Assembly (NCBI GenBank): GCA_024645155.1
Contig: JAHEGF010000004.1
Coordinates: forward strand, 1-34,587
Origin: Phyllobacteriaceae bacterium
GTDB taxonomy: Bacteria > Pseudomonadota > Alphaproteobacteria > Rhizobiales > Rhizobiaceae
Reading direction: 5' to 3'
Length of the DNA stretch: 34,587 nucleotides
Below the pieces are notes generated by a model that was not told where the DNA came from, ran no database searches, and saw only the letters and a list, made by a program, of their open reading frames with translations. Position numbers and translations under genes: made by a program. Shown here one piece after another: positions 1,130 to 4,503 of this stretch (positions are counted from its first letter, which is position 1; the number at the start of each line of letters is the position of its first letter).

Positions 1130-3718
1130 TTACGCGGCGGCCTTGTTGAGCCACCGGCTTGCGATCTCTGCGAGCTTGTCGGGTGAAACCGGTTTCGACA
1201 GGTAGTCGTCCATGCCGGCCTCAAGACACCGCTCCTTATCACCCTTCAGGGCATGGGCGGTCACACCGATGATCGGGGTGTGATGTCCGGTTGCGCGTTC
1301 AACTTCACGGATGGCTTTCGTTGCCTCCAGTCCGTTCATCTCCGGCATCGAAACATCCATCAGTATGATCTTCGGGCTCATTGCACGATGGACATCCACC
1401 GCCTTTTTGCCGTTGCCGACAATCTTGTAGCTGACATCGAGCTCATCGAGTATTTGCGAAAAAACCATCTGATTGACTTCGTTGTCCTCGGCCACGAGGA
1501 TTTCGAGGGGAACGGCGTTCTTGTGTTCCAGACGCGGCTGCAGTGTTTTTTCGTTTTCCGGATCAGCGGCCTTATGAGGTGGTTGCGACCGGAGCTGCAG
1601 GGAGCGCATGCGTTTTGCCATTTCGGCGAGCGGGGCGGCACCCGCTTTCTCCGGTTCGCCCTTGGTGTGATGCAAAACGCTGACAATGGTCTCCAGCAAT
1701 AGCGAAGAACGTGCCGGTTTGGTCAGATAGGCAGCAATCCCGTATTCGTCGGTCAGATGCCTGAACTCACCCTGATCAACTGAGGTCAGTAGCACAATCG
1801 GGATGCCGGCATGAGCCGGATTGGCGCGGATTTCGCGGGCGACATCTTCGCCGTTCATCCCCGGCATCTGGTAGTCGAGAATAATGCAGTCAATCGGTAC
1901 CGGCAGTTCATAGGACCGCTTTACGACGGCCAGACCGACCTTTCCGCTTTCAGCGGCTGCACAATCGAAATTCCAGCTGCGCAACTGTTCGACCAATATG
2001 TTGCGATTGACCGGATTGTCATCGATGATCAAGATTCGCGATCCCGATACGTCCAACGGTGCGGTTTTACGCGGATTGAAGTCCTCGACTATTTCCAGCG
2101 GAACCGTAAACCAGAAAACGGTTCCCTTGCCGACCACACTTTTTGCCTGAATTTCGCCACCCATCAGGCGGATCAGCCGCGATGCAATTGCAAGGCCAAG
2201 ACCTGTTCCCTCGTGCCGCCGTGTCGACGATGCGTCGACTTGCGCGAATTTCTCGAAAACGGACAGAAGTTTCTCTTCGGGGATGCCAATCCCGGTATCT
2301 TCAACCCTGACAGTCAGATGGACGATCCTGTCTTCGGCCTCGCCGGACACGTCAACCAGGACATGACCGGAATCGGTGAATTTGACGGCATTGCCTACCA
2401 GGTTCGTGATCACCTGTCGAAAACGGCCGATGTCGACATTGACCACTTGCGGCAGGTCGGGAGCGATGCGGACGATCAGTTCCATGTCCTTTTCGGCAAC
2501 ACTCGACGAGACAAGCGTGGCGACATCTTCCACGGCTTCACCGAGGTGGGCAGGTGCCGGGTCAAGCTCCAGCCTGCCGGCATCGATTTTCGAAAAGTCG
2601 AGTATGTCGTTGATGATCGTCAAAAGGGCATTGCCCGACTTGACGATGACATCGACGAAGGTGGATTGCCGGGAATCCAGATCCGACCGTGCAAGCAATT
2701 CCGCCATGCCCAGGACACCGTTCATCGGCGTTCTGATTTCATGGCTCATGTTGGCCAGGAACTCCGATTTCGAGCGATCGGCCGATTCGGCTTTTTCAAG
2801 CGCGGTGCGCGTTTCCTCATGGGCTTCCTTCAGCTTCTTTTGGGTTTCGGAAATGTTGCGCTCCATGGGCATGAAGACAAATCCACCGATCAAAATCCCG
2901 ACGAAGATCACAAGGGCGCCGGTGATCATCAAGACATGCTGCAAAACGCCGTAGCTGTTAATCGTTTCGTCCTGTAGCGTCGTGGTGACGCTGGCCAGTG
3001 TTGGGGCTATACGGGTCGTTGCGATTTCGTTGACCTGGCCAAATATCCGCTTTGGCGCCCGGCCGGAATAGGCTTGCATGGTGTCGAGCCGGCTGGCGAG
3101 GCCAACAAATTCCTGAATGTCGTCACGCAGGCTGGTTTCCTGCGCGCCAGCCTTCCAGTTACGAATGCCGGAACCGGCCTCATCCCCTTCCCATATCTTG
3201 CGGACGGAAGCGGGCATGGAGTTGCGCTTGAACATTGCGGTTTCATCGGTAATCCCGGCAGCATGCCCATCGCCTTCTGTCGATGAAATGCGTGCTGACT
3301 CACTCATCACGATGTCGCCGTCTGCGGCCCATTCCAGTGTCTGGTAGGATTGGCGCGCGCGCTCCACGGCATTGCTCAGACGCTGCTTCAGCCCGATGAT
3401 TTGCTGCTCGTAGTCCTTGCTTCTGCTGGCCGGTCTTTCATTTGCGGCGGGAGCCGGGTTTTGTGCGGCCAGCGCCTTGAACAGGGATTTTTCGGCTTCG
3501 GAGAGCTGCGCGGTGTTTTCCAGTTGCGCAAGAATCAGCACCAGATCGGATGTTGCTTCGGCCATAGTGCTGATCACTGCACCAAAGCGGACCTTGTTCT
3601 TTTCCGTTTCCGACTGCCAGTTGATATATCCGCCGCCAGCAGCAAGCGCGAGAAAAAAACCAATCAGTACAATGGTGATACGCGTGCGCAAATACCCGCG
3701 CGTGATCTCTGGAGACAT
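1130..3718 (-). CDS. Membrane hybrid sensor histidine kinase with two C-terminal receiver domains
   Basis: TM1, about 220-aa periplasmic region, TM2, HisKA (EFLANMSHEIRTPMNGVLGM), HATPase_c (DTGIGIPEEKL, GTGLGLAI), REC1 (ILIIDDNPVNR...ILDYQMPGMNG), REC2 (ILVAEDNEVNQ...LMDVSMPEMNG). Start taken at MSPEITRG; the ORF could extend to 3760. Confidence 0.93.
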   Translation of the reverse strand: MSPEITRGYLRTRITIVLIGFFLALAAGGGYINWQSETEKNKVRFGAVISTMAEATSDLVLILAQLENTAQLSEAEKSLFKALAAQNPAPAANERPASRSKDYEQQIIGLKQRLSNAVERARQSYQTLEWAADGDIVMSESARISSTEGDGHAAGITDETAMFKRNSMPASVRKIWEGDEAGSGIRNWKAGAQETSLRDDIQEFVGLASRLDTMQAYSGRAPKRIFGQVNEIATTRIAPTLASVTTTLQDETINSYGVLQHVLMITGALVIFVGILIGGFVFMPMERNISETQKKLKEAHEETRTALEKAESADRSKSEFLANMSHEIRTPMNGVLGMAELLARSDLDSRQSTFVDVIVKSGNALLTIINDILDFSKIDAGRLELDPAPAHLGEAVEDVATLVSSSVAEKDMELIVRIAPDLPQVVNVDIGRFRQVITNLVGNAVKFTDSGHVLVDVSGEAEDRIVHLTVRVEDTGIGIPEEKLLSVFEKFAQVDASSTRRHEGTGLGLAIASRLIRLMGGEIQAKSVVGKGTVFWFTVPLEIVEDFNPRKTAPLDVSGSRILIIDDNPVNRNILVEQLRSWNFDCAAAESGKVGLAVVKRSYELPVPIDCIILDYQMPGMNGEDVAREIRANPAHAGIPIVLLTSVDQGEFRHLTDEYGIAAYLTKPARSSLLLETIVSVLHHTKGEPEKAGAAPLAEMAKRMRSLQLRSQPPHKAADPENEKTLQPRLEHKNAVPLEILVAEDNEVNQMVFSQILDELDVSYKIVGNGKKAVDVHRAMSPKIILMDVSMPEMNGLEATKAIREVERATGHHTPIIGVTAHALKGDKERCLEAGMDDYLSKPVSPDKLAEIASRWLNKAAA

Positions 3719-3763
3719 AAATGCGACCTTCGCTGAAATTTTAGCGATTATCGTCATCATCTA

Positions 3764-3778
3764 TTAAGGGCGGCTTAA
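3764..3778. promoter_or_regulatory. Candidate CtrA binding site TTAA-N7-TTAA
   Basis: ttaaGGGCGGCttaa, perfect match to the CtrA consensus, immediately upstream of the hybrid kinase start. Confidence 0.55.
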
Positions 3779-3849: not shown

Positions 3850-4503
3850 TCAGGCGATGGACTGGCCGGTCTTGGCCCAGTCATTCAGGAATGCCTCAAG
3901 GCCCTTGTCGGTCAGCGGATGTTTGACCAGGGCCCTGAGGGTGCCTGGCGGTATGGTTGCCACGTCTGCACCGATCAGGGCTGACTGCTTGACATGGATC
4001 ACGGTGCGGATCGAGGCAGCGAGGATCTTGGTCGAAAACCCGTAATTGTCATAAATGGTGCGGATTTCGCCGATCAGTTCCATGCCGTCGGTGCCCATAT
4101 CATCGATGCGGCCGATAAATGGCGATATGAAGGTCGCGCCGGCCTTGGCGGCGAGCAACGCCTGATTGGCGGAGAAACACAGTGTCACATTCACCATGTG
4201 GCCGTCGGAGGTCAGCGCCTTGCAGGCCTTCAGTCCCTCAAGGGTCAAAGGCAGTTTGATGCAAACATTGCCGGCGATCTTTGCGAGCACGGCTGCTTCC
4301 CTGATCATGCCATCATAATCAAGCGCGGTAACCTCTGCGGAAACCGGGCCATCGACAATGCCGCAGATTTCTTTGGTCACTTCCATGATGTCGCGGCCGG
4401 ATTTCAGTATCAAGGAGGGATTTGTGGTCACTCCATCGACCAGTCCCAATGCGTCAAGTTCCCTGATTTCGGTAACATCTGCTGTATCGACAAAAAACTG
4501 CAT
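3850..4503 (-). CDS. Transaldolase / fructose-6-phosphate aldolase family protein
   Basis: 217 aa, [36 protein letters not shown]...CIKLPLT (Schiff-base Lys)...[11 protein letters not shown]. Confidence 0.92.

Follow-up and report, generated by a model that had tools for sequence, protein, structure and literature searches.

CtrA promoters and hybrid kinases described so far

The consensus of the CtrA full site, including its spacing, is TTAA-N7-TTAA (PMC6180460, PMC7200025). In Caulobacter, CtrA sites that activate are located at -35, and those that repress cover -10 (PMC6180460, PMC11264516). In addition, eipA is under direct CtrA control in Brucella (PMC10787603), and the Sinorhizobium rcdA promoter is bound by CtrA with no measured effect on transcription (PMC4433202). 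Among the hybrid kinases, ShkA of Caulobacter (HK-REC1-REC2) belongs to the ShkA-ShpA-TacA phosphorelay; its REC1 is a pseudo-receiver that binds c-di-GMP, and tacA is a CtrA target (PMC7010744). Furthermore, CcsA of Sphingomonas melonis, going by a title cited in PMC8921679, is a precedent for a second kinase feeding ChpT-CtrA in a branched CtrA phosphorelay.

The locus studied here lies in a window of 34,587 nt (the whole stretch of DNA that was analysed), which is contig 34 of an assembly with 441 contigs (3.56 Mb, 93.6% complete). The family of this assembly includes Mesorhizobium sp. Z1-4, Zhengella mangrovi, and Notoacmeibacter, and several records label it Rhizobiaceae. Like the CtrA-activated promoters of Caulobacter, the promoter of this locus has a single TTAA-N7-TTAA, which would overlap the -35 region, and a putative -10 element downstream. 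Unlike the characterised Caulobacter CtrA targets, the target here is an uncharacterised kinase. The eipA promoter (Brucella, other Rhizobiales), which CtrA controls directly in a related family, also carries an N7 box in the genome studied here. However, the eipA product is periplasmic and its gene is beside ctrA/chpT, whereas the kinase gene is elsewhere. The features of the promoter region are as follows:

3850..4503, minus strand: fructose-6-phosphate aldolase/transaldolase-like gene (TIGR00875), upstream of the kinase in the window
3764..3778, minus strand: CtrA full site TTAA-N7-TTAA, from the pattern match and conservation in orthologous promoters; the minus-strand reading for the kinase is TTAAGCCGCCCTTAA
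3747..3752, minus strand: GATAAT, putative -10 element at a distance of 11 nt from the box on its downstream side
3739..3741, minus strand: predicted transcription start region, 6-8 nt past the -10 element and placed from its position
3727..3730, minus strand: AAGG, a candidate ribosome-binding site that precedes ATG 3718 by 8 nt, by sequence inspection
1130..3718, minus strand: membrane hybrid histidine kinase of 862 aa (Pfam; start from the conserved N-terminus)

Conservation of the box in orthologous promoters

The sequence TTAAGGGCGGCTTAA at 3764-3778 matches TTAA-N7-TTAA at 8 of 8 positions and is the sole perfect site of the 34.6-kb window. Because it is palindromic, it can be read from either strand. 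A profile of the kinase sensor region was searched against 398 genomes of the family, and the kinase was present in 38 of them, representing 15 genera. With distances measured from the conserved start MSxxxTRxYLRxR, a perfect TTAA-N7-TTAA was found 58-85 nt upstream of the start in 37 of the 38 orthologues and in 14 of the 15 genera; the single exception (L055) has one mismatch (TTAG-N7-TTAA). In the 300-bp upstream regions of the 38 orthologues, the N7 spacing occurred in 37 and the N8 spacing in a single one, and N6 did not occur; the number of perfect N7 boxes expected there was 0.04 under a first-order Markov model. Between genera (one representative per genus), the TTAA halves were 98.3% identical, the N7 spacer 41%, and the upstream 50 nt 27.5%, the last of which is the random level. 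Thus, TTAA halves that are kept in randomised flanks point to conservation by function rather than by recent descent. The initial annotation had given the 8/8 match, the N7 spacing, the coordinates, and the uniqueness in the window, all of which were correct on rescan. It had also held that absence of the box from orthologues would speak against CtrA control, and the claim came through this comparison.

Promoter structure and sense of control

In the box-anchored alignment, A at position 28 and T at position 32 were invariant in all 38 orthologous promoters. The two most conserved positions of the sigma-70 -10 hexamer are those that match this A28 and T32. Since the putative -10 element stands at a fixed distance, the box would be at about -38 to -24 relative to the predicted start, a position taken from that element. 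By the same element, the placement would be that of a CtrA-activated promoter. The A28/T32 pair also occurred in 8 of 50 strand-readings of the N7 sites of the same genome, which is suggestive only.

The box is separated from ATG 3718 by 45 nt, which places its far edge 60 nt ahead of this codon. The common N-terminus of the orthologues, MSxxxTRxYLRxR, fits a start at 3718, and a transcription start at about 3740 would make the 5' leader ahead of it about 22 nt long. The start codons 3760/3757 of the mechanical ORF (876 aa) were ruled out because they are upstream of the predicted transcription start and outside the conserved N-terminus. Both lines of evidence therefore back ATG 3718, the start thought likely in the initial annotation, and the box together with the promoter geometry kept in 38 orthologues strongly supports its proposal of CtrA (cell-cycle) control.

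Since the box was kept in 37 of 38 genomes while the flanks changed completely, it is very probable that the cell cycle turns on the kinase. We consider it highly probable that the box functions as a CtrA site, at which CtrA~P activates the kinase gene. CtrA~P would bind the box in place of a -35 element, and the bound protein would then activate transcription of the kinase by the RNA polymerase holoenzyme that contains the housekeeping sigma factor. Given such activation, the kinase would be made when CtrA~P is high. We infer the sense of this control (activation), its timing, and the signalling path of the kinase. An opposite sense, in which CtrA bound at the box acts as a repressor of the kinase and limits its expression to the low-CtrA~P part of the cycle, is unlikely. 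At the Caulobacter hemE promoter Ps, a -35 full site does join in repression, with a second site over -10 (PMC11264516), but no second conserved site over -10 was found in the 38 kinase promoters, and a lone site at -35 normally goes with activation (PMC6180460, PMC11264516). Direct CtrA control of the kinase is well supported by comparison, and activation is its most likely sense.

CtrA and its probable sites in the genome

The genome encodes CtrA at G000:C377:3257-3934, with 84% identity to a Caulobacter query sequence, and chpT adjoins ctrA. In all 15 kinase-carrying relatives checked, CtrA was 98-99% identical. Elsewhere in the genome, N7 sites precede eipA, a DUF1465 gene, which we take to be of the rcdA family, a pilus-protein gene, and a penicillin-binding protein; further sites lie ahead of a gene for a sigma-54 response regulator, of surface polysaccharide genes, and of other genes. 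From this sequence evidence, the gene set behind the N7 sites looks like a CtrA regulon.

That the conserved TTAA-N7-TTAA is used by another OmpR-family regulator or an AT-binding protein instead of CtrA is quite improbable. Conservation of the box shows that some protein is served without saying which, and further OmpR-type regulators, with 25-37% identity to CtrA, are encoded in the genome. However, the consensus and spacing match those of CtrA (PMC6180460, PMC7200025), and known CtrA targets are among the genes that follow N7 sites here.

Several sites are recorded here in their own right. A perfect N7 box at L092:2622-2636 (G000:C324:8621) lies between a sigma-54-dependent response regulator, whose layout is similar to that of Caulobacter TacA, and an M3 peptidase gene. 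Another, at L022:1501-1515 (G000:C291:16328), is directly ahead of a long ORF beginning MASAEYPFIDIAALDDVREQF, which we take to resemble the PdhS-type cell-cycle kinases; no Pfam domain was found in the part of this ORF that was read. In addition, four TTAA words with spacings of 9, 7, and 9 occur within 41 nt at G000:C58:4879-4919, and about 1 kb from this cluster there is another N7 box, ahead of an outer-membrane beta-barrel gene.

Chance expectation

TTAA-N7-TTAA sites with at most one mismatch numbered 2 in the window against 3.4 expected; the motif counts of the window alone, a weak guide, leave the box unremarkable. The genome-wide statistics are pattern counts, with the chance level of N7 sites taken from the other TTAA spacings of the same genome. 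Among 122 TTAA pairs spaced N0-N20, there were 25 perfect N7 sites, and the other 20 spacings averaged 4.85 each (Poisson P of the N7 excess about 9e-11). Thus, about four-fifths of the N7 sites of the genome are above background, and about 0.05 perfect N7 sites are expected by chance per 34.6-kb window. The N7 count was below that of a reversed control pattern (25 vs 53), which is commoner because TTAA is rare in this genome, and the fair test of N7 enrichment is the spacing comparison rather than the reversed pattern. A chance match in a GC-rich window has almost no probability left: the one-mismatch scan of the window would allow it, but a perfect box has persisted in 37 of 38 orthologues amid DNA that is randomised elsewhere, which already refutes it.

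Chromosomal context of the kinase gene

The box sits in the gap between the transaldolase-like gene and the kinase, both on the minus strand. A divergent priA is beyond the aldolase gene, and lptE and the end of leuS (named by inspection) are on the other side of the kinase. In most kinase orthologues, the upstream gene is ispA-like and not transaldolase-like. A perfect box was found in 2 of the 60 ispA-downstream loci fetched (G073 and G079), and both carry this kinase. None of the 58 loci without this sensor has a perfect box, which rules out the box as a feature of the ispA locus. Seven of these 58 contain a related kinase whose sensor differs, and one of them (G031) has a one-mismatch site. 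Sensor and promoter thus seem to have been exchanged together at the ispA loci. At L141, L150, L156, L159, L161, L174, and L194, an HK-REC-REC core as in the kinase follows ispA, with another N-terminal sensor and no perfect box.

In the genome of the window, ispA is on another contig, and neither the kinase nor the box was found within the following 790 nt. The box is kept in the window while ispA lies elsewhere without the kinase, and therefore the kinase was probably relocated with its promoter. A relocated kinase that retained its promoter is the most likely reading of the window. No perfect box was found just downstream of 13 transaldolase loci (one has a one-mismatch site), which rules out that the box belongs to the transaldolase-like gene. 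The box is tied to this kinase and not to its position. In Zhengella and Notoacmeibacter (L200 and L202, downstream of the gene in G021 and G025), the transaldolase-like gene has another hybrid kinase beside it, whose membrane sensor is different too, and no such kinase was seen at the remaining transaldolase loci examined. We infer that either the transaldolase-side position took up kinases repeatedly, or recombination between paralogues moved the kinase of the window.

Domains and sensor of the kinase

The kinase has the order TM, helical periplasmic region, TM, HisKA, HATPase, REC, and REC, and neither PAS nor Hpt domains were found in it with Pfam. Its parts are as follows:

3620..3682, minus strand: transmembrane segment 1 (approximate), a hydrophobic stretch by inspection
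2870..2941, minus strand: transmembrane segment 2 (approximate), by inspection, directly before the invariant P284 (numbered from ATG 3718)
2576..2773, minus strand: HisKA phospho-acceptor domain (PF00512, E 1.6e-22)
2093..2434, minus strand: HATPase_c domain (PF02518, E 9.5e-30)
1649..2038, minus strand: receiver domain 1, with canonical DD / D / TS / K residues
1163..1501, minus strand: receiver domain 2, with canonical residues

The AlphaFold model of the sensor is all helical (mean pLDDT 72). A Foldseek search against the PDB gave no significant match, the weak one being the periplasmic kinase sensor domain 4k0d (E 0.76).

Both ShkA and this kinase are HisKA-HATPase-REC-REC proteins without Hpt, and ShkA is linked to the CtrA cycle, as this kinase probably is. 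Unlike ShkA, the kinase has a large periplasmic region between two transmembrane segments, and its REC1 keeps the phosphorylation residues (DD, D, TS, K), with no DDR motif in the linker. Since both receivers keep these residues, a ShkA-type kinase with a pseudo-receiver was ruled out. CckA is likewise an alphaproteobacterial membrane hybrid kinase, but the kinase here lacks a PAS match and has two receivers instead of one; thus, it is not CckA. In addition, the kinase fell below the NCBIfam equivalog cut-offs for BarA (448 bits vs 890), TorS (417 bits vs 676), and ArcB. A search of the open-access literature for CtrA with hybrid kinases in Mesorhizobium returned nothing.

Possible output of the kinase

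Because the kinase is without an Hpt domain, it needs a separate phosphotransferase, and the candidates in this genome (assembly 93.6% complete) are ChpT and one stand-alone HPt. The likely signalling path would begin with the helical periplasmic domain sensing a periplasmic signal, followed by phosphotransfer from His to Asp in a receiver; the phosphate would then pass by ChpT or the stand-alone HPt to a response regulator. We regard participation of the kinase in the CtrA phosphorelay, which the initial annotation had raised as a possibility, only as a hypothesis. With a rather low probability, it might be a lineage-specific extra input that is CtrA-induced, senses the envelope, and sends phosphate by ChpT or HPt to CtrA or a parallel regulator. 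If this is true, it would be a feedback loop that is undescribed in Caulobacter, Sinorhizobium, or Brucella.

The sole PF01627 HPt gene of the genome is at G000:C163:17227-17445 (L198). The element TTAAACATARGGTTAACG (TTAA-N8-TTAA, with small variations) is upstream of it in 6 of 6 genomes checked (L198, L223-L227), and its spacing differs from the CtrA consensus. This N8 element may serve the HPt gene or a divergent large gene (MARKTTTSKKLDD...).

Meaning for the CtrA regulon of the family

CtrA regulons have been mapped in few model species. The sequence comparisons support well that the kinase gene is a new, clade-wide member of the CtrA regulon, with a mechanism that is already known. With a perfect full site kept across 14 of 15 genera and after a chromosomal move, it is a strong candidate for a CtrA-controlled sensor in this part of Rhizobiaceae. 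A Hyphomonas study suggested that additional, unidentified kinases may supply almost half of the input of the CtrA pathway (PMC7200025). The kinase described here is a concrete gene with which one can ask which more histidine kinases link the envelope to the cell cycle.
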